Below are positions 38,122 to 62,412 of a stretch of 64,000 bases of DNA, piece by piece. Position numbers and translations under genes: made by a program. The DNA comes from Spirochaeta thermophila DSM 6578 (GTDB lineage Bacteria > Spirochaetota > Spirochaetia > Winmispirales > Winmispiraceae): positions 1,302,001-1,366,000 of the forward strand of contig NC_017583.1 in the NCBI RefSeq assembly GCF_000184345.1. Direction: 5' to 3'. The notes under the pieces were generated by a model that was given only the letters and a program-made list of their open reading frames with translations, did no database searches and was not told the origin of the DNA. The stretch's first letter is position 1, and every line of letters starts with the position of its first letter.

Positions 38122-39483
38122 TCAACCCCGCTGATCGAGAGGAATGTACTCCCGTTTCCCTATCACGTTCTTGTAGGCGGGACGGATGATCCTCCCTCCG
38201 CTTATGAGCTCCTCCACGAGGTGGGCCGACCACCCGGCGATCCGGGCGACCGCGAATATGGGGGTGTAGAGTTCGGTGGGAATCCCCAGCATCTTGTAGA
38301 CGAAGCCGGAATAGAAGTCCACATTGGGTGCTATCACCTTGTTCGACTTCTTTATCTCGGCGAACAGCTCCGGGGTGAGACGGGCGATGAGTTCATAGAG
38401 ACCGAACTCTTCCTCGAACCCCTTCTCCTTCGCGAGTGTCTCTGCCTTCTCTCTGAGGAGCACCGCCCTGGGGTCCGAAATCGTGTAGACGGCGTGTCCC
38501 ATGCCGTAGACGAGACCGCTCCGGTCGAAGGCTTCCTTGTTGAGGATCTTGACGAGATAGTCCCTCACCTCCTGCTCGTCGCTCCAGTCCTTCACGTGGG
38601 CCTTGATGTCCTCCATCATAGCCATCACCTTGATGTTGGCTCCGCCGTGCTTGGCCCCTTTGAGAGAACCGATGGCCGCCGCGACCGCGGAATACACGTC
38701 GGTGGCCGCCGAGGTGACCACGTGTATCGTGAACGTGGAGTTGTTGCCTCCGCCGTGCTCCGCGTGGAGGACGAGGGCGAGGTCGAGGATCTCCGCCTCG
38801 CTCCTGGTGTACTCCTTGTCGGGGCGTATCAGGTACAGGAAGTTCTCGGCGGTGGAGAGATCGGGCTGAGGAGGATGTATGTAGAGGCTCTCTCCGTGGT
38901 AGTAGTGGCGCTTGGCCTGATAGCCGTACGCCACCAGTACGGGAAATCGGGAGATGAGCTCTATGCTCTGTCTGAGCACGTTCTCTATGGACAGATCCTC
39001 AGGATTGGGATCGAAGGAATAGAGGGTGAGCACCGATCGTGCGAGTTTGTTCATGATGTCGGAACTCGGATTCTTGAGGATCGTGCTCTCGGTGAAATCC
39101 CCGGGGAGATTGCGGTTCTCTCCCAGCACGGCCTGAAATTCCTCGAGCTCGCTCTTCGTAGGAAGGTACCCGAAGAGGAGGAGGAAGACGGTCTCCTCGA
39201 AGCCGAAACGCCCGTCGGCCTGGAAACCCGCCACGAGATCCTCCACCGAGATGCCCCGGTACAGGAGCCTTCCGGGGACGGGAACCACCTCTCCCTCGTC
39301 GATCACATAACCGTGTACCTCACCTATCTCCGTAAGTCCCACGAGGACACCGCTTCCGTCCTCGTTGCGCAGGCCGCGTTTCACGTTGTAGCGTGAGTAG
39401 AGGGCGGGGTCTATGGTGTTGTTCTCTCGTGCGATCGGGGTGATCTTCTCGAGAAAGGCCTTCTCTCTGGCAGTGAGATCCAT
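38122..39483 (-). CDS. gltA: citrate synthase
   Basis: Citrate synthase condenses acetyl-CoA and oxaloacetate. The 453-residue product shows LVLHAEHGGGNNSTFT (first catalytic His), VYGMGHAVYTISDPRA (second His) and APNVDFYSGFVY (catalytic Asp). It is longer at the N-terminus than the E. coli type. It has AAGGGGG before the ATG. No other TCA cycle gene is adjacent. Its promoter carries two matching inverted repeats, so expression is probably tightly controlled. Confidence 0.95.
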   Translation of the reverse strand: MDLTAREKAFLEKITPIARENNTIDPALYSRYNVKRGLRNEDGSGVLVGLTEIGEVHGYVIDEGEVVPVPGRLLYRGISVEDLVAGFQADGRFGFEETVFLLLFGYLPTKSELEEFQAVLGENRNLPGDFTESTILKNPSSDIMNKLARSVLTLYSFDPNPEDLSIENVLRQSIELISRFPVLVAYGYQAKRHYYHGESLYIHPPQPDLSTAENFLYLIRPDKEYTRSEAEILDLALVLHAEHGGGNNSTFTIHVVTSAATDVYSAVAAAIGSLKGAKHGGANIKVMAMMEDIKAHVKDWSDEQEVRDYLVKILNKEAFDRSGLVYGMGHAVYTISDPRAVLLREKAETLAKEKGFEEEFGLYELIARLTPELFAEIKKSNKVIAPNVDFYSGFVYKMLGIPTELYTPIFAVARIAGWSAHLVEELISGGRIIRPAYKNVIGKREYIPLDQRG

Positions 39484-39499
39484 CTGTGCCCCCTTGTAT

Positions 39500-39564
39500 A
39501 TTTTTGCAGTATATTAGCAAAAATCAGGAAAAAATTCAATATTCTTGCAAAAAGACGCAAGAAT
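39500..39564 (-). promoter_or_regulatory. citrate synthase promoter with two tandem operators
   Basis: Reverse-strand TTGAAT (39539-39534), 17 bp, TAATAT (39516-39511). Operator 1 is ATTTTTGC-N9-GCAAAAAT (39500-39524) and surrounds the -10 box. Operator 2 is ATTCTTGC-N8-GCAAGAAT (39541-39564), just upstream of the -35. Both fit ATTYTTGC-N8/9-GCAARAAT and are about 40 bp apart centre to centre. Confidence 0.72.
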
Positions 39565-39571
39565 ATGCAGT

Positions 39572-50181: not shown

Positions 50182-50254
50182 TCCGGCGTAGCTCAGTCGG
50201 TAGAGCGGGTGGCTGTTAACCACTAGGTCGCAGGTTCGAGTCCTGCCGCCGGAG
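50182..50254 (+). tRNA. tRNA-Asn (anticodon GTT)
   Basis: Acceptor TCCGGCG/CGCCGGA, anticodon stem GGTGG/CCACT region with loop CTGTTAA, T arm GCAGG-TTCGAGT-CCTGC, discriminator G. CCA is not encoded. It is sandwiched between two IS256-type sequences. Confidence 0.93.
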
Positions 50255-50258
50255 CGAG

Positions 50259-50283
50259 AACCCACCGTTAAGGTGGGTTTTTT
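50259..50283 (+). terminator. terminator of tRNA-Asn
   Basis: AACCCACC, loop GTTAA, GGTGGGTT, then TTTT. Confidence 0.9.
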
Positions 50284-50360
50284 CGTGCCCATGTGATGCA
50301 ATTTCCCCTTTCCTTTCTATTTTCTATACCCTATACGACGATGCTCACCTTTGGGGCCTA

Positions 50361-50718
50361 TGACATTGAGTGAGGCAGAGAAGGCCCTTGAGGGGTTCTG
50401 GAACGAGTGGGGAGCCCCTGTGCCGCGGATGCACGCTGTGCTTCTGTGGCGGAAGGAGCGACTGTTCTCCTATCTGGAGCTTCTCTATGCGTGGAAAAGG
50501 TAAGGGACAGACAAGTACCCTCGCGGAGAACCTTCTTCAACACATGAGGAGCTTTCTGCGGCGGTATCCTGGGTATACGAATGGCGCCCATGCGCATGAG
50601 GTGGTAGGCCTCTATGTGGTGGGCATGCAGGTGATACAAAAGGTGGGGAGACGTATCTCTTATCAACTCCAGTTCAATTTCAACACTCCTCCTTGACAGT
50701 TCCCTCCTTGACAGTGCC
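50361..50718 (+). pseudogene. 3' fragment of a second IS256-family transposase
   Basis: The DNA is closely similar to the C-terminal third of the first copy. ALEGFWNEWGAPVPRM and LLWRKERLFSYLEL are read in one frame to a stop at about 50500. NLLQHMRSFLRRYPGYTNGAHAHEV then continues in another frame to a TGA within the right end. The right-end sequence CTCCTTGACAGT is present twice in tandem. The stretch 50284-50360 before it shows no gene. Confidence 0.82.
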
Positions 50719-50719
50719 C

Positions 50720-50749
50720 TTGACTCCCGTACTCCTCTTCAGTTATAAT
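50720..50749 (+). promoter_or_regulatory. strong sigma-70 promoter at the head of the defence island
   Basis: TTGACT (50720-50725), 18 bp, TATAAT (50744-50749). It may drive the whole 12-kb rightward island. Confidence 0.7.
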
Positions 50750-50814
50750 AATCTTTGTACTTTGTATACTCATACTCACATCGAGCGGAAGGGTATTCAC
50801 AAAAAGGAGGGGTG

Positions 50815-50858
50815 ATGGCGTCCGGAAGTGGACGAGGGGCCGCGGATGATGCCATGCC

Positions 50859-50862
<4 letters not shown>
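50815..50862 (+). CDS. 15-codon ORF with strong ribosome binding site
   Basis: AAAAAGGAGGGGTG precedes an ATG reading MASGSGRGAADDAMP and a stop. It is the first translatable frame behind the strong promoter. It may be a leader peptide or, more likely, the first codons of a gene whose body was deleted when the downstream S23-type fragment was joined. Confidence 0.35.
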
Positions 50863-53283
<2,421 letters not shown>

Positions 53284-53295
53284 GAGGTTACTTGG

Positions 53296-55626
53296 ATGAA
53301 TATCCCCCAAATAAACGAGGATGAAGTGGAGCTCCTCATCGAAGAACACCTTCGCGAGCGCGGATGGAACCTTACCGACTTCACCGTGACCCGCAAACGC
53401 TGGCGCGAGGGTTTGGACGGCGAGGAAGCTGACCGGGTATTTCTTCGGGAAGGTCGAGTTGTGGCAATCCTGGAAGCGAAGCGACCCGGGAAAGACCTAT
53501 GGGCCGCGCTGGAACAGGCTAAGCGCTACGCCAGAGCCTACAAACAAAATACCGGTCATGATGTCCCACTCCTGTTTGCGAGCGATGGGAAAGTCTACCT
53601 TCGGCAAAACCTGAAGGCCAATACGCTACCAGAGCGCATCAAGCAATTCCCAACACCTGCCGAATTTGGCGAGTTTTTCAGTCCGCAAGCGAAAGAACTA
53701 CACGGCAAACTGCGGGACTACCAGCGTGTGGCAGTTTCTCAAGTACTGGCTGCTGTCCAGGCAGGCCGCCGCCGCATGTATCTCCAGATGGCAACAGGCA
53801 CCGGCAAGACGATTACCGCTGCGGGCATTATTGCAAAGCTCTGGTCCGTTGGCTTAGTCCGAAGGACGCTCTTCCTCGTAGATCGGGATGCGCTTGCCGT
53901 TCAAACCGTCAAGAAGTTCAAAACGCACCTTGGTGACAACTTCAACATTGAGCGGGCAACAGGCTCAAAAGAAGACAAACATCGCGATATCCTGGTCAGC
54001 ACGATTCAACATATGGCAGTGAGAAATAAATACCTCAGCTATCCTGCTGATCACTTTAGTCTCGTTATCCTTGACGAATGTCATCGCTCTTATTTTGGTG
54101 ACTGGTACGGCGTGCTCGATCATTTCGCCAAGGGCGGCGCCATCCTGCTGGGCTTGACGGCCACCCCCGCGGATAAGGAAACCGTCAACACGGATCGCTT
54201 TTTCACCGATCCAGGCCAGTATCCTGGGCCCATTTACCGCTACACGATCCGCCAGGCTGAGACCAATCCCGAGGTGCCGGAGTGGGAGAGACTGGCCCAG
54301 TGCATACACTTCAAGTTCCACACCAATGTGGACCTGGAAGGCGTGCACGATATGGGCTTTGACTTTGAACCCGAACAATTGGGCCGAGCTGTAGATGTCC
54401 CCCAACGCAACCGACTGATCGCTGAAAAATACTTCGAGGTCATCGGAACCCGTCAGCCTGTCAAAACCATCGTCTTCGCAGCCTCTATCGCCCATGCGAA
54501 AAACCTTCGCTACGCCCTGATCGAGAAGTACAACGAGCTGAACAACCTTCCACCCAACGATGCCGCAGCCGAAAAGTTCATCGTTGCGGTCCATAACGAA
54601 ATGCCGGGCGCGCGCACTCTTATTGAAGAGTTCCAAAAAATTACCCCTGCCGAGGAACGCAAGGCGATCATAGAACAGGCGCACAAAGACCCCAACATGG
54701 CTCCCAGACCCATTGTCCTTGTAGGTGTCGGGATGCTGGACACGGGCATCGATGCGCCAGATGTCGAGGTGCTGCTGATGGCCCGCCCGACGAAATCGAA
54801 GGTGCTCTATGTGCAGATGAAGGGCCGCGGCACCCGCAAATGCCGGGAAACGGGCAAGGAGTTCTACAAACTCGTGGACTTTGTGGACATCACACGGCTT
54901 GAACCTGTCATCACCAACGACACGCCAGGCATCGAGGATGAGCCGGTTGAGCAGGAAGAGGAGGAGGTCATCCGGCGCGAGCGGGAAGAAGCCGGTGAAG
55001 GCGCAGGAGCTAAGGGCGAAAAGGTCGGCAGCGAACAGCAGATGGTCATCGCCGATGTCCCCGTGCACCTGGTCTTTTCGGAGACTATCTCCCCTGCTGT
55101 CCTTGAGGAACTGCGCCGTCAGGTTGAAGCACAGCTCAAAGGAGGCATCGAGCGCGAGGGTCTCAAGCAACGCTTCGTCCAAACCATCCTGTGCTGGCGG
55201 TACTTCAAGGGAGCAACCATGCCGGACCACTCATTCCTGGCAACCATGGGGTTTGACCTCTCAACGCTTCGCGATCTCTACGGTGAACCCGAAGCCACGC
55301 TGGAGGACTTTATCGCCGTGGCCATGGGCGAAGCCGATTTCGAAACACTGCACAGACGTCGCGAATTCGAGAAGTGGGCGCTGGGAAAGAGCCTGACCAG
55401 TGAGCAGCGCGAGCTGGTCCTCATGGTTTGCGACTTCAAGCGTGCTAACCCCGATATCAAACCGGAGCAAATCCTCCGCAGCCATCTGCTTGACCAGGCC
55501 GGGGGACTGCCCCGCATCAAGGCGCTTTTCGGCGGGTTGGACAAGCTGCTCTCGCTGGCCGATGAAGCCCTCTCCTTAGAAACCGGAACACCCATTGAGG
55601 AGGAAAACCATGGCAAGAACACCTGA
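53296..55626 (+). CDS. hsdR: type I restriction HsdR, nuclease-translocase subunit (system B)
   Basis: HsdR is the motor and nuclease of type I restriction. The 776-residue product is EcoEI-like: nuclease region with EEADRVFLREGRVVAILEAK (D...ExK), helicase motifs MATGTGKTITAAGI, ILDECHRSYFGDWYG, LLGLTATPADKET, and motif VI region MKGRGTRKCRETGK, then an EcoEI_R_C domain. All catalytic motifs are present. It has AGGAGG 9 bases upstream of the ATG. Its end overlaps hsdM by 17 bp. Confidence 0.92.
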   Translation: MNIPQINEDEVELLIEEHLRERGWNLTDFTVTRKRWREGLDGEEADRVFLREGRVVAILEAKRPGKDLWAALEQAKRYARAYKQNTGHDVPLLFASDGKVYLRQNLKANTLPERIKQFPTPAEFGEFFSPQAKELHGKLRDYQRVAVSQVLAAVQAGRRRMYLQMATGTGKTITAAGIIAKLWSVGLVRRTLFLVDRDALAVQTVKKFKTHLGDNFNIERATGSKEDKHRDILVSTIQHMAVRNKYLSYPADHFSLVILDECHRSYFGDWYGVLDHFAKGGAILLGLTATPADKETVNTDRFFTDPGQYPGPIYRYTIRQAETNPEVPEWERLAQCIHFKFHTNVDLEGVHDMGFDFEPEQLGRAVDVPQRNRLIAEKYFEVIGTRQPVKTIVFAASIAHAKNLRYALIEKYNELNNLPPNDAAAEKFIVAVHNEMPGARTLIEEFQKITPAEERKAIIEQAHKDPNMAPRPIVLVGVGMLDTGIDAPDVEVLLMARPTKSKVLYVQMKGRGTRKCRETGKEFYKLVDFVDITRLEPVITNDTPGIEDEPVEQEEEEVIRREREEAGEGAGAKGEKVGSEQQMVIADVPVHLVFSETISPAVLEELRRQVEAQLKGGIEREGLKQRFVQTILCWRYFKGATMPDHSFLATMGFDLSTLRDLYGEPEATLEDFIAVAMGEADFETLHRRREFEKWALGKSLTSEQRELVLMVCDFKRANPDIKPEQILRSHLLDQAGGLPRIKALFGGLDKLLSLADEALSLETGTPIEEENHGKNT

Positions 55627-57268
55627 TTTCAATCAGTTTGGCGAGGAGCTCTGGGAAATCGCCAACGTCTTTCGCGACGATGCGCTTCACGCCACGGAGC
55701 GCCTGGAAACCTTTAGCCTCTTTCTCTTTCTTAAGCTCTGGGATGAAATGGCCCTGGAGCAGGAGGAGGCCCTTGGCCGTTCCCTGAACGACGAAGAGCT
55801 GGCGATCCCCAACAAGTACCGATTCCACAAGTGGGCAAGCGACCCCGACGGTTATGCTAAGCAACATGGCTTTGAAGACAGCGTAGACTTTTGCCGGCGC
55901 ATGTTCGATGACCTTGCCACCCGCAAGGTCGTGGATCAGTATGGCAAGGACATCACCTTCGACGTGCGGCGCCTCTTCGGCGGCACGGTTTTCCGGCTAC
56001 GCTACACCACGACCATCCGCGCGCTCGTCTCCAAACTGAACGAACTCAATCTTCGCGAGATCATGATGCGCGGCGTCGGCGAACCTGGAGAGCGTTACGA
56101 CATCTTCGGCCGAGCCTATGAGTACCTGCTCCAGAAGTTCGGCCAGAACAAGGAGTTCGCCGAGTACTTCACGCCGCGCCACATCGTGGACCGCATGGTG
56201 CAGATCATTGATCCGGAAATCGGCGAAACGATTTACGACCCGGCTTGTGGCACCGGCGGCTTTATTGTTCGGGCGTTCGAGTGGGTTCGGGCAAAAATAG
56301 AGAGGAAAACGATCTCGGCGGCTGAAAAGGAGCGTCTCCTGCGCAATCTTAAAGAAAAGCACCTCATCGGGGTGGAGCACGTGCCAATCGTCTTCAAGCT
56401 TGCCCTGATGAACATGATCCTCCACAAAGACGGCTCAAGCCTGCTCCAGAACGACGACAGTCTTTCCAACAAAGCCCAGGACATCCACAAGAACAAATAC
56501 GATGTGATTCTTGCCAATCCCCCGTTTGGGCCGACCAAGCAGGAGCGCTTAGCGCAGTTCGAATACCACATCAAGCTTTACGAAGCGCTTTTCATCCAGC
56601 ACATGATGAATGCCTTGCGCCCCGGTGGGCGTGCCGCCGTGGTGCTCAAGGAAGGGCTGCTGTTTGACTCCAAGAAGATGCTGCGCGCGATCTGCCGCAA
56701 GCTCGTGGAGCAGTTCGAGGTTCTGGCCGTGATCAGCCTGCCTAACGGCGTCTTCAACCCCTACAGCGGTGCCAAGACCAGCATCGTAGTCTTCCGCAAG
56801 CCCCTTGGCAGGGATGACGTCCGCACCTCCAAGGTCTGGTTCTATCGGGTGGAAAGCGATGGCCGCGACCTGGGTGCGACGCGCAGGCCTCTGCCCGATT
56901 TTGAGACCGATGGCGACCTGGAGCACATGGTTTCGCTTTTCCCCTACACCTGGCGCCACGAAAAGGATGGCGGCGTGCGGGCCATCCTCAAAGCCGATGA
57001 CCTGAAACAGTTCGAAAGCGAAAAATCCTGGTGGGCAACCATTGAGCAGATTCGTGCCACGGACTACAACCTCACCGCCGGGCGCTACTGCCCGCATCAG
57101 GCCGAGGCCGTCGAGCACGAAAAGCCCGAAGTGCTCATCAATCGCCTGCTGGAGCTGGAGGAGGAAATCACCAAGGACCTCCAAGACCTTTTGACGCTTG
57201 TCACCGTCCCGACATCGCCCGAGGGTCTAAAAGGTGCCATCCGGTTTAGCTCAGAGACTACGGAGTGA
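55610..57268 (+). CDS. hsdM: type I restriction HsdM, adenine methyltransferase (system B)
   Basis: HsdM methylates adenine and, with HsdS, protects host DNA. The 552-residue product is full length with EYFTPRHIVDRMVQIIDPEI, the SAM site DPACGTGGFIV, catalytic ILANPPFGPTKQE and a C-terminal coiled-coil region (LLELEEEITKDLQDLL). The ATG at 55610 has GAGGAGG 6-7 bases upstream and lies within hsdR. It is followed by a PIN-domain gene rather than directly by hsdS. Confidence 0.93.
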   Translation: MARTPDFNQFGEELWEIANVFRDDALHATERLETFSLFLFLKLWDEMALEQEEALGRSLNDEELAIPNKYRFHKWASDPDGYAKQHGFEDSVDFCRRMFDDLATRKVVDQYGKDITFDVRRLFGGTVFRLRYTTTIRALVSKLNELNLREIMMRGVGEPGERYDIFGRAYEYLLQKFGQNKEFAEYFTPRHIVDRMVQIIDPEIGETIYDPACGTGGFIVRAFEWVRAKIERKTISAAEKERLLRNLKEKHLIGVEHVPIVFKLALMNMILHKDGSSLLQNDDSLSNKAQDIHKNKYDVILANPPFGPTKQERLAQFEYHIKLYEALFIQHMMNALRPGGRAAVVLKEGLLFDSKKMLRAICRKLVEQFEVLAVISLPNGVFNPYSGAKTSIVVFRKPLGRDDVRTSKVWFYRVESDGRDLGATRRPLPDFETDGDLEHMVSLFPYTWRHEKDGGVRAILKADDLKQFESEKSWWATIEQIRATDYNLTAGRYCPHQAEAVEHEKPEVLINRLLELEEEITKDLQDLLTLVTVPTSPEGLKGAIRFSSETTE

Positions 57269-57273
57269 AAGGT

Positions 57274-58422
57274 ATGGCTTGGGCGGTTGAGCAGCTACAG
57301 CAAATTTTAAACGGCCGAGTGGTGCAGAAGCCTAAGGTAGCACTCGATACCTGTTGCGTCCAGTACTACATTGGCGATCCGCCCGCGCAACCTTGGGCGG
57401 ACTGCCTCGACCCTGTTTTTCGCGCTGCGCTCGACGGTCGGATCGAGCTCTATGTCAGCACTGTCGTCGTCTCCGAGCTTCTTGCCCATGTTCATTTCGC
57501 CCACCGCAACACGGGCTACGATCCTGAGCTCGATCTCCTCGCCATCTTGGACCGTCATTTCCAGGTGCTCGATGTTAACGGTGATGTGGCGCGGGCCGCT
57601 GGCCGACTGCGCGGGACTTTCGTTCCTGGCAAAAAGATGTCGCTCAAGACACCCGACGCCCTGATCGGCGCAACAAGCATCACCAACGGCCACACTCTTT
57701 TCATAACGAACGATGCTCAACTGGCTCAAGCACTTCCTGCCGGCACCTGCGTTTATCTCAAGGAACTCGCCTTAGAATGGCTGGCGGAAAATTTTCCGCG
57801 TACATGCTTTGATACCAGCAAAACGATAAAGCCCGTTCGTCGAGGTCCAGGGCTGGCAGATCATCTCTTATCAGACACAAACGAGTTTGGCGGAGTTAAG
57901 CTCAAGCCTTCCGTAACCTGCAAGCGAATCCTTGCAGACGCGTGGATCGCTGCAGCCGCAATAAACGAAGCGTGCGTCTTCTTCGTTCTCACGCAGCGCA
58001 ATGGCCGCAAAGAGGAAGCCGCGGAAGTCCTCTTCTGGCAGGAAGCCCTTGAGCAGCAGCGTGCGGCCCAGCGCATTGTCAGATACCTTCGCGAATATCT
58101 TGAAGTCCAATACGACCGAGGCAAGGATCGGTACCTCGCGGCATTGCACAAGCATGCCTATGGCTTCGTCTTCACTTCGCTCAACCGTGAGAGGGCTCGC
58201 CAGTTGCAGCCGTGCTTTGCGTCCAAGAGCGACCATCAGCGCGAAGCGGACGCCTTGAAGGCCTACCTGACACCGCTCTGGCGCTTCCGATCTGCGCTCA
58301 CGCTGCCCGGTACCACCTGGTTCCTCTGTGAGAACGGTGAAGCCAGGTACCTCAAGCCGGCGGAAACGCAGCAATTCCTTGACAAGGCCAATAACGTTCT
58401 TGGATGGGAGGGTGGACGATGA
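57274..58422 (+). CDS. PIN-domain protein inside the type I operon (candidate RNase)
   Basis: This 382-residue protein has an N-terminal PIN domain (about 20-155): VALDTCCVQYYIG (Asp25), STVVVSELLAHVH (Glu68), SLKTPDALIGA (Asp128) and LFITNDAQLAQ (Asp147), the four acidic residues expected for a PIN nuclease. The C-terminal about 225 residues do not match a family I know. The ATG at 57274 follows GGAGTGAAAGG; a GTG at 57265 overlapping the hsdM stop is an alternative. It overlaps hsdS by 4 bp. Its position recalls PrrC, an anticodon nuclease encoded within a type I locus, but the fold is different. Confidence 0.85.
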   Translation: MAWAVEQLQQILNGRVVQKPKVALDTCCVQYYIGDPPAQPWADCLDPVFRAALDGRIELYVSTVVVSELLAHVHFAHRNTGYDPELDLLAILDRHFQVLDVNGDVARAAGRLRGTFVPGKKMSLKTPDALIGATSITNGHTLFITNDAQLAQALPAGTCVYLKELALEWLAENFPRTCFDTSKTIKPVRRGPGLADHLLSDTNEFGGVKLKPSVTCKRILADAWIAAAAINEACVFFVLTQRNGRKEEAAEVLFWQEALEQQRAAQRIVRYLREYLEVQYDRGKDRYLAALHKHAYGFVFTSLNRERARQLQPCFASKSDHQREADALKAYLTPLWRFRSALTLPGTTWFLCENGEARYLKPAETQQFLDKANNVLGWEGGR

Positions 58423-60083
58423 ATAAGCAACAGAACTATCTTCCCAAGGGTTGGCAGTGGGCCAAGTTGGGAGACGGACAAATCGCGACCGTCGTTATGG
58501 GACAGTCACCCCCGGGAACCACGTACAACGAACAAGGACAGGGGCTTCCGTTCTACCAGGGAAAGGCTGACTTTGGTGACGTGTCACCCACCCCGCGGGT
58601 GTGGTGCTCCGCACCCAAGAAGACTGCGGAACCAGGGGATATCCTGCTTTCGGTTCGGGCGCCTGTGGGGCCTACAAATCTCGCAAGCCACCGCTGTTGT
58701 ATTGGCCGCGGCCTTGCGGCAATACGCGGCGAGAGGAATGCGCTGACTCTCTATTTGTACTTCTGGTTCAAGCACATAGAGCCCTGGCTCAGTGAGCAAG
58801 GACAAGGCAGTACGTTCAAGGCTATTGGTAAAGATATACTTGAAAACATCATTGTCCCCCTCCCCCCTCTCCCCGTCCAGGAGCGGATTGTGGAGATCCT
58901 GCAGAAGGCCGACGAGATTCGGCGCAAGCGCAAAGAGGCGCTGGAGCTGGCGGAGAAAATCCTGCCCGCGCTCTTCCTGGAGATGTTCGGCGACCCGGCA
59001 ACGAATCCGAAGGGGTGGGAGACAGAACCGATTGGGTCTTTAGTGCACTTTGACACAGCCCTCATCAAACCGGAACCCGGTAAGACCTATCTCTACTTGG
59101 CACCGGAACACATAGAATCAAATACAGGAAACTACACCGGCCCCCATCCCACAGACGGGCGCGAGATAGGTAGTGCGAAGTATTCCTTCACTTCCGATCA
59201 TGTGCTTTATTGCAAGCTACGTCCCTACCTGAACAAGGTTGTTCTGCCACATACCAGTGGTATTTGCAGTACGGAACTAGTCCCTCTCCGGCCTGGTCCT
59301 AAGCTGCTAAGAGAGTTTTTGGCTATTTACCTTCGCCTCCCCTTTTTTGTGGCCACAGCCGTACAAAAGTCCCAAGGAACAAAGATGCCGCGCTTTGGCC
59401 CGGAGCTTATGAAGCAGGAGAGAATAATTGTCCCGCCAATTCCCCTACAACGATCGTTCTGCTTACAGGCAAGCCAACTGATGGAAGCTTCCCGGAAGCT
59501 GAAAGAGGGATTAAGTCTTTCGTCTAGTTGCTTCGATGGTCTCCTCTCCCGTGCCTTCACCGGCGAGCTGACGGCCGAATGGGAGGCCGCCAACGCCGAC
59601 TGGATTGCGGAGCGGCAGGCATTCTATGAGCGGCTGCCGCGCCTGGTGGTTCTGGCGCTCATCGCCGAGAAGGCGAAACAGACCGGACGGGCCGCTGCGG
59701 TGCTGGTGACGGCGCTCATGAAGTACGTTTTCCTGCTACAAATGGAAGGCAACGCCGACCGCAGGCGTTTTTACCATTTCGTTCCTTACCACTACGGCCC
59801 CTTCGCCAAGGAACTCTATGACGATCTTGCCACCCTGCAGGCCGAGGGCCTGGTGCGGGTGGAGAACGACGCCGAAGAGGAAAAGACGAAAATCACACTG
59901 GCTGACCCGGCCAAGGCCGAGGAGGCACTCTCTGCTCTCCCCGACGATCTCAAAGAAGCAGCTGCGGGGATCATCGAGACCTATGGCGATCTCGACCACA
60001 ACGCCTTGCTCGAAACGGTCTATGAAAAGTATCCGTCCTATGCTCGAAAAAGCCGCCTGCGCAAGCGTGGGAAACGCTCATGA
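58419..60083 (+). CDS. hsdS: HsdS specificity subunit fused to a Panacea/YwgA-like domain
   Basis: This 554-residue protein has two target-recognition domains (about 8-195 and 205-385), each followed by a conserved helical spacer (IIVPLPPLPVQERIVEILQKADE; RIIVPPIPLQRSFCLQASQL). That is a complete HsdS, which normally ends near LSRAFTGELTAEWE (about 400). Here 140 more residues follow: VVLALIAEKAKQTGRAAAVL, ALMKYVFLLQ, YHFVPYHYGPFAKELYDDLATL. This resembles SocA/YwgA (DUF4065, Panacea) proteins, known as antitoxin domains. The fold assignment is from pattern memory. It overlaps both neighbours by 4 bp. Confidence 0.82.
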   Translation: MNKQQNYLPKGWQWAKLGDGQIATVVMGQSPPGTTYNEQGQGLPFYQGKADFGDVSPTPRVWCSAPKKTAEPGDILLSVRAPVGPTNLASHRCCIGRGLAAIRGERNALTLYLYFWFKHIEPWLSEQGQGSTFKAIGKDILENIIVPLPPLPVQERIVEILQKADEIRRKRKEALELAEKILPALFLEMFGDPATNPKGWETEPIGSLVHFDTALIKPEPGKTYLYLAPEHIESNTGNYTGPHPTDGREIGSAKYSFTSDHVLYCKLRPYLNKVVLPHTSGICSTELVPLRPGPKLLREFLAIYLRLPFFVATAVQKSQGTKMPRFGPELMKQERIIVPPIPLQRSFCLQASQLMEASRKLKEGLSLSSSCFDGLLSRAFTGELTAEWEAANADWIAERQAFYERLPRLVVLALIAEKAKQTGRAAAVLVTALMKYVFLLQMEGNADRRRFYHFVPYHYGPFAKELYDDLATLQAEGLVRVENDAEEEKTKITLADPAKAEEALSALPDDLKEAAAGIIETYGDLDHNALLETVYEKYPSYARKSRLRKRGKRS

Positions 60084-61039
60084 AAGCCCGGAGCCGTGAA
60101 CTGCTCGACCGCGCCATCGCCGCCATGGTGGCGGCGATTGACATCTACAACAAACCCGATTTTCCCTATCGGGCCGAGTCATTCACCATCCTGGCGCTCA
60201 ATGCCTGGGAGCTTTTGCTCAAAGCTAAGTGGCTGGCGATGAACAGGAATCGCCTCAGCAGCCTCTACGTGCGGCAAGGCGGAGGCAGCAAGCGGCCGCG
60301 CTACAAGCGGACGCGCTCGGGAAGCCTGCTCACCCATAGCATAGACTATCTGACGAAGAAGCTGACCGAACAGAAGGTTCTGGACGAAGCTTGTCGCAAG
60401 AATCTGGACGCGCTTGCGGAACTGCGCGACATAGCGGTCCACTTCTACCACCGGAGTCCTGAGCTTGCGGAGCGCGTCCAGGAAATCGGTATGGCTGCCG
60501 TCAAGAATTTTGCTGCCGCCGCGCAGGATTGGTTCAACGAAGACCTATCCCGCTTCAACTTTTACCTTATGCCGCTGTCGTTCGTGGCTCCTCCGGTCAC
60601 CGAAGCGGTAGAACTGAACCGGGAGGAAAAGAGGTTTCTAAAGTATCTGGCAAGCCTCGAAAACACCGACGCCGATCCCAATGCCCGCTACTCTGTTGCT
60701 GTCAACATCGAAGTTCGCTTCGTGCGCTCAAAGTCGCTGGCAGCAACACCGGTTCGGGTTGCCATTGATCCCAATGCGCCGGCAGTGCGGCTAACCGAAG
60801 AACAAATCCGCGAGCGTTATCCGTGGGATTACCGTGAATTAACCGAGCAGTGTAGGAGACGGTATTCCAACTTCAAGGTGGATAAGGAATATCATCAGCT
60901 TCGAAAGAGTTTAGCAAACAATCCCCAATTTGCTCACATTCGGCGACTGGACCCTCAGAACCCCAAGTCACCAAAAAAGACCTTTTATAGCCAGGCCATA
61001 CTTCGCGAGTTTGACAAAGCCTACAAGAAGAAGAGTTGA
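60080..61039 (+). CDS. DUF3644 protein with HEPN RX4HXY motif (candidate RNase)
   Basis: This 319-residue protein begins with the DUF3644 pattern ([20 protein letters not shown], then [15 protein letters not shown]). It has [13 protein letters not shown], which fits the HEPN catalytic motif RX4HXY with Arg116, His121 and Tyr123. The C-terminal half is unassigned. HEPN proteins are commonly RNases in defence and toxin systems. It overlaps hsdS by 4 bp and is the last gene of the intact operon. Its final codon overlaps a fragment of another hsdR by 4 bp. Confidence 0.78.
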
Positions 61040-62412
61040 AGGCGATCACCGAACTGCGCCCCGAATGGCACAGCGACGACGATACGAAGGGAAAAATCAA
61101 GGTCGTCATGACCGGCTCGGCCTCCGATCCGCACGACTGGCAACCGCATATCCGCAACAAGGAGCGCCGCGAACTCATCGCCCGCCGGTTCAAGGACCCG
61201 GACGATGAACTGGAACTCGTCATCGTGCGGGATATGTGGCTGACCGGCTTCGATGCCCCGCCTCTGCACACCATGTACATCGACAAGCCGATGAACGGTC
61301 ATACCCTGATGCAGGCCATCGCCCGGGTGAACCGTGTCTTTCGCGACAAGCCCGGCGGGTTGGTGGTGGACTACCTGGGCATCGCCGACTCGCTCAAACA
61401 TGCTCTGGCTGTGTATGCCGAAAGCGGCGGGCGTGGAAAGGCCGCCGTGGACCAGGAAGAAGCGGTGGCCGTCATGAAGGAGAAGTACGAGGTGGTGCAG
61501 GGCATTCTGCACGGCTTCGACTACCGCCGCCTACTCCATGCGTCCCCGGATGAGCGCCTGCAGGGCATTGCCGATGCAATGGAATTCATCCTGCAGCAGG
61601 AAGACGGCAAGAAGCGCTACCTGCAGGCCGTAGCGGCGCTGTCCAAAGCCTTTGCCCTGGCCGTGCCCCACGAGGAGGCCCTGGCGATCCGCGACGAGGT
61701 GGGCCTGTTCCAGGAGATTCGCGCTTCCCTCATCAAGGCAACCGTCAGTTCGGCTGAGCGACCTCCTGAGGAGATCGAGGCCGCGGTGCGGCAGTTGATT
61801 TCCAGAGCAATCTCAGGTCGGGAAGTGGTGGACATCTTTGCAGCGGCAGGGCTTGACCGCCCCGACATCTCCATCCTTTCGGACGAATTCCTGGCCGAAG
61901 TGCGGGCATTGCCCCAGAAGAACCTGGCCGTGGAAACGCTGAAAAAACTCCTGCAGGACGAAATCCGGGTGCGGTTCAGGAAAAATGTGGTGCAGTCCCG
62001 GGCGTTTTCAGAACTGCTGGAAGCGGCGCTCAGGAAGTACCACAACCGTGCCATTGCTGCAGCGGAAGTGATTGAGGAGTTGATCGCCCTGGCCAGGGAA
62101 ATGCGCGAAGCGCAACGGCGCGGCGAAAAACTCGGCCTGTCTGAAGAGGAAGCCGCCTTCTACGATGCGCTGGCCGCCAACGAAAGCGCCGTGCAAGTGC
62201 TGGGCGATGAGACGCTGAAGCAAATTGCTCAGGAGTTGGTGGAGCGCGTGCGCAGGAGCGTGACCGTGGACTGGAGCAAGCGGGAGAGTGCGCGGGCGAA
62301 ATTGCGTGTGTTGGTGAAACGTATCCTGCGTAAATATGGCTATCCGCCTGACAAGCAAGAACAGGCCACTGAGCTTGTATTGGCGCAAACTGAGGTGCTG
62401 TGTAATGAGTGA
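61036..62412 (+). pseudogene. hsdR: type I restriction HsdR, 5'-truncated (system A)
   Basis: The frame reads the C-terminal half of a different HsdR (EcoR124-like): [58 protein letters not shown], and the DUF3387-type C-terminus. The nuclease and first helicase domain (about 500 residues) are gone, with only a TTG at the junction. It is not a duplicate of the upstream hsdR. It should pair with the truncated hsdM at 52285, which suggests one system split in two. Confidence 0.85.

Follow-up and report, generated by a model that had tools for sequence, protein, structure and literature searches.

Three putative ARG boxes at the citrate synthase promoter of Spirochaeta thermophila point to probable control by ArgR

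The window (the whole 64,000-nucleotide, or 64-kb, stretch of the Spirochaeta thermophila DSM 6578 genome that was analysed) carries a citrate synthase gene, separated by an 88-nt intergenic region from an upstream gene on the same strand that we take to be trmB, the name used in the initial annotation. Short and AT-rich in a GC-rich genome, this region holds the predicted promoter, two inverted repeats and three putative 18-bp ARG boxes, while a search for Rfam RNAs within 39484-39571 returned none. The promoter (TTGAAT-17-TAATAT) agrees with the consensus at 8/12 positions, a score under the cut-off of the consensus scan, where it is therefore unlisted, so that we infer it. The features are as follows:

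38122-39483, minus strand: citrate synthase gene (453 aa; Pfam Citrate_synt, 392.5 bits), the presumed target
39489-39495, minus strand: probable ribosome-binding site AAGGGGG, 5 bases ahead of the ATG, assigned by eye
39493-39510, minus strand: putative ARG box A, core TGCAAAAATATACA at 39495-39508, covering the presumed transcription start immediately past the -10; 15.66 bits
39500-39524: inverted repeat 1, ATTTTTGC-N9-GCAAAAAT, with one arm (39500-39507) inside box A and the other in no box
39511-39516, minus strand: predicted -10 TAATAT, 17 bp from the -35
39534-39539, minus strand: predicted -35 TTGAAT
39534-39551, minus strand: putative ARG box B, core TGCAAGAATATTGA at 39536-39549, overlapping the -35; 7.23 bits, the weakest of the three
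39541-39564: inverted repeat 2, ATTCTTGC-N8-GCAAGAAT, its arms being the halves of boxes B and C that face each other
39554-39571, minus strand: putative ARG box C, core TGCATATTCTTGCG at 39556-39569, just past the stop of the upstream gene; 9.94 bits
39572-40261, minus strand: upstream gene, its stop adjoining box C; start codon assigned by eye

Both inverted repeats, which the initial annotation had placed around the citrate synthase promoter, were present as described. The arms of repeat 2 can be extended to 10 bp (39539-39548 and 39557-39566), and the far arm of repeat 1 (39517-39524) sits in the -35/-10 spacer. In 5000 dinucleotide-shuffled versions of the 88-nt intergenic region, an 8-bp repeat arose in 149 and a 10-bp repeat in 11, and the combination of a 10-bp with a second 8-bp repeat in none (0/5000); the repeat pair is more than chance. 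Moreover, the genome scan that had been proposed for the repeat pattern, with its spacer widened (ATTYTTGC-N7..10-GCAARAAT), matched at two places only in the 2.56-Mb genome: repeats 1 and 2 themselves. That the palindromes share half-sites, improbable by chance, would suit an uncharacterised dimeric regulator other than ArgR, binding cooperatively to two GCAARAAT palindromes. On the other hand, the palindrome has no further genomic copy, and therefore neither a regulon nor an autoregulated gene is available for such a protein.

Start-codon alignments were made of the citrate synthase loci of 30 Spirochaetia genomes and of 80 loci of a second collection. Many of the spirochaete loci carried TGCATAAATATACA-like words ~21, 31 or 41 bp apart, and words at such spacings brought ARG boxes to mind. 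To avoid circularity, we derived the motif from the 250 nt preceding argR in 30 other Spirochaetia genomes, leaving out citrate synthase and any member of the window's family. The commonest 14-mers there were TGTATATTTATACA and TGCATAAATATACA, each found in 22 of the 30 loci (at most 2 mismatches), as compared with 4 loci for the best word in shuffled argR upstream regions; a symmetric 18-bp matrix was built from 53 sites. Validation on argJ failed, as none of 30 Spirochaetia loci (L173-L202) had an ARG box upstream of this gene. Validation on carA succeeded: a box of at least 9 bits was found upstream of carA in 13/27 other genomes, i.e., in 13/23 of those with argR and 0/4 of those without, and in none of 236 downstream control tiles. 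Given the 0/30 loci with a box, ArgR appears not to control argJ in this class, or to do so via an operon; in S. thermophila itself, no box of at least 8 bits was found within the 7 kb surrounding argJ.

Under this matrix, box A had the top score of the whole window (the next elsewhere being 10.3 bits), and boxes C and B ranked third and fourth. Box A has 2 mismatches to TGCATAAATATGCA, and 17 of 20000 shuffled versions of the intergenic sequence reached its score, while none (0/20000) gave three sites of at least 7 bits. The 18-bp semi-palindromic box matches the ARG consensus of the lineage, boxes B and C more weakly than A. From centre to centre, A and B are 41 bp and B and C 20 bp apart, in helical phase, and the boxes overlap the predicted -35 and the predicted start of the putative promoter. 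The earlier idea of several sites about four turns apart, on one helix face and over the citrate synthase promoter, is supported. Several observations count against an ArgR reading: the low scores of boxes B and C (7.2 and 9.9 bits), a far arm of repeat 1 that belongs to no box, a spacing unlike that of E. coli, the lack of boxes at argJ and, as given below, the Spirochaetia citrate synthase regions that miss the cut-off, the weak link to argR and the noise of the genome-wide pattern at 3 mismatches. A short AT-rich intergenic region in a GC-rich genome might also produce symmetry by chance, with no regulator bound to the promoter DNA; however, the shuffle controls, the top rank of box A in the window and the conservation of the boxes in two genera of this family and beyond it all oppose this explanation, which we find scarcely credible.

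A site at 50761-50778 came second in the window under the ARG-box matrix (10.3 bits); it lies ~40 bases ahead of the GGAGG-GTGATG start that heads a defence cluster (50182-62412, just past a tRNA gene at 50182-50254); this ARG-like site may be chance. In the cluster, a short ORF (51167-52288) matches only the first 357 of the 1231 positions of the BrxC (BREX) model and is followed by ORFs that match type I restriction-modification parts (methyltransferase, specificity and restriction; 52285-53283, 53296-55626, 55595-57268, 58404-60083 and 61036-62412). The BrxC-like piece beside this run may be a remnant or a rearranged island.

In close relatives the palindromes were not conserved, whereas the ARG boxes were. 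In the genome of the same genus (the sister genome), where citrate synthase is 98% identical, repeat 1 keeps both its arms and repeat 2 is broken: one arm of the latter reads TTCTTAC instead of TTCTTGC, and the spacer is one base longer. Within the ARG box the changed base is at a purine position, and box C goes from 9.9 to 11.2 bits; in box A a TACA to TGCA change again falls on a purine position (15.1 bits), and box B is identical (7.2 bits). A genome of the same family has lost both repeats but has three boxes, at -89 (16.1 bits), -57 (12.6 bits) and -26 (8.3 bits), the outer two being at nearly the same place as in S. thermophila (-89/-26 versus -88/-27). Perfect palindromes, which had been taken for the recognised unit, are hence not what the relatives keep, and the condition named in the initial annotation (no conservation in close relatives) would refute them. 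Read in the register of the ARG motif, the region holds three 18-bp boxes.

The same comparison bears on the dimeric regulator: the intact arms of repeat 1 in the sister genome would favour it, but the ARG boxes persist where repeat 2 is broken and where neither palindrome is left. With no other genomic copy and no conservation of the palindromes, this candidate was rejected, and we consider it very unlikely. Of the initial proposal, one regulator with shared half-sites was supported, while a dimer reading the two perfect palindromes was not.

It had also been suggested that repeat 2 could act as the trmB terminator; were this its main role, as an intrinsic terminator of the upstream gene, the likeness to an operator would be a by-product. 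The minus strand does hold a terminator-like site (11 pairs, tail TGAATTTTTT) whose hairpin reaches -12.4 kcal/mol (z -4.3). However, just 3 of its pairs are G-C, the T run is interrupted, the sister hairpin has only -5.1 kcal/mol (z -1.6), the same-family genome has no such repeat, and box A is left unaccounted for. As the stability of the hairpin is not kept in the sister genome, the terminator was rejected as the main role, for which we see an exceedingly slim chance, and because of this weakening it would be at best a secondary function.

More widely, upstream sequences suggest that ARG boxes at citrate synthase are conserved in part of Spirochaetia: i) a box of at least 9 bits lies upstream of citrate synthase in 12/28 other Spirochaetia, as compared with 4/539 other tiles of those loci; ii) at no less than 9 bits and a shuffle p of at most 0.02, 13 of the 30 Spirochaetia citrate synthase loci have a box (S. 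thermophila and its sister included), and the remaining 17/30 regions miss the cut-off; iii) at the same thresholds in the second collection, boxes were found in 11/34 spirochaete-labelled loci versus 1/45 loci of other phyla. At least two loci are common to both collections (L035=L006 and L040=L008) and were counted once per set, and one locus with 25 bases upstream (L101) was left out of the other-phyla count, giving the 45 loci. Treponema-like loci with a late-starting alignment gained no boxes when rescored nearer the match. The link between citrate synthase boxes and argR is weak (12/25 genomes with argR and 1/5 without), and the sole box-bearing genome without argR (G003) is 81% complete. 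Across loci, the boxes are 20-22, 30-32 or 41 bp apart, i.e., 2, 3 or 4 helical turns (phase test, R = 0.90, n = 20, with related genomes not independent). Six Treponema-type citrate synthase promoters (L081, L093, L098, L103, L104 and L110) have two strong boxes 30-31 bp apart, unlike the 20/41 bp of the window and the classical 21 bp.

The genome also carries an argR gene, whose protein has the DNA-binding and arginine-binding domains (PF01316, 71 bits; PF02863, 74.5 bits), scores 118.3 bits against TIGR01529 (slightly below the cut-off of 130.45) and aligns with solved ArgR structures, the GT-AGDDT stretch included. In relatives, argR (PF02863) was found in 47 of 60, besides the window's genome. 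Two boxes 42 bp apart, a distance resembling the 41 bp at citrate synthase, lie in the argR promoter ahead of an argR-argC-argB-argD-argG run, and the carA promoter has tandem boxes of 20.6 and 17.3 bits. Throughout the genome, sites with at most 2 mismatches to TGCATAAATATGCA are found at eight promoters: carA; argR-argC; citrate synthase; a PRK08637-type aminotransferase; a membrane pyrophosphatase; the pckA/metF intergenic region; purC; and a Bmp-type ABC binding protein. At 3 mismatches there are 54 matches versus 27 in the reversed control, an excess of only twofold, and half of these matches are expected noise. Aspartate kinase is preceded by two weaker sites 40 bp apart, a pair that the sister genome repeats at equal spacing (the gene there was not re-identified). 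The arg run is followed on the same strand by pgi and eno (L256 2437-10338), so that these two genes of glycolysis may be part of the arginine operon. In the bioA promoter (L226 1430-1560), an ARG-like site of 9.3 bits has TGCATATTCTTGC in common with box C and lies beside TGTTAACC direct repeats that are reminiscent of BirA-type sites.

Because of the boxes, their match to those of the argR and carA promoters, the argR gene and the conservation, we propose that the repeats very probably belong to an ArgR operator through which ArgR controls the citrate synthase promoter. The initial annotation had left the regulator unnamed; the most likely candidate is now ArgR, a hexamer. As described for ArgR, the hexamer uses arginine as its co-repressor and binds two 18-bp boxes that usually overlap the promoter (PMC6640053; PMC12341379). 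At citrate synthase, the arginine-bound hexamer would occupy three in-phase 18-bp boxes, which span the region from above the -35 through the start site, and plentiful arginine would shut the promoter, leaving less citrate synthase. With box A on the start site and the other two over and above the -35, a bridging hexamer could exclude or clamp polymerase. As citrate synthase is the first step to 2-oxoglutarate, glutamate and then arginine, this would amount to end-product control at the pathway's carbon entry. From the position of the boxes, arginine-dependent repression is the most likely action, and ArgR is described in PMC12341379 as also able to activate. Binding, repression, the need for arginine and the choice of boxes that one hexamer bridges are what we infer.

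Such an arrangement would be a known kind of system with a new target, citrate synthase. In Bacillus, citrate synthase is under CcpC/CitR-type (LysR) control; the likeness lies in a dedicated control of citrate synthase, and the regulator family and the site differ, with no sign of this type of control at the S. thermophila promoter. PMC3616918 makes mention of a LysR regulator for citrate synthase genes. With E. coli ArgR the arrangement shares the 18-bp semi-palindrome and the several in-phase copies over the promoter, and with known ArgR systems the further boxes at argR, argC-B-D-G and carA of the same genome. It differs from E. coli in its TGYATAWWTATRCA-like spirochaete consensus and in the 20 and 41 bp between centres, as compared with two boxes with a 3-bp gap in the E. 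coli sites described in PMC6640053, and from known ArgR systems in having citrate synthase as target. In lactic acid bacteria, the ArgR targets named in an excerpt of PMC3616900 are transport, biosynthesis and carAB. The reconstructed gammaproteobacterial ArgR regulons, so far as the regulon passages of PMC5343134 describe them, include gltBD and oadABG and thus likewise extend to the precursors that supply arginine with carbon and nitrogen, although by glutamate synthase and oxaloacetate decarboxylase rather than citrate synthase; in the same passages gltA is placed under PsrA and PdhR, not ArgR. No report of ArgR control of citrate synthase was found among the open-licence papers searched, which is not proof of absence; PMC8457756 and PMC5839063 had none of the terms sought, and in PMC12341379 and PMC2880562 the term 'citrate synthase' was confined to the reference lists.

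The case shows that an array of boxes is able to mimic perfect palindromes, and it names a candidate regulator where the initial annotation had a gap. Control by ArgR would tie the arginine level to the enzyme through which carbon is committed to 2-oxoglutarate, in part of Spirochaetia. We tentatively raise a broader possibility: in this lineage ArgR might be a wider governor of anabolic carbon, with arginine signalling for the whole oxaloacetate/2-oxoglutarate family. Beyond the arg genes, its targets would then be citrate synthase, PEP carboxykinase, the membrane pyrophosphatase, the aspartate-type aminotransferase, aspartate kinase and purC, all six of which have boxes, and pgi and eno would perhaps be controlled through the argR operon.
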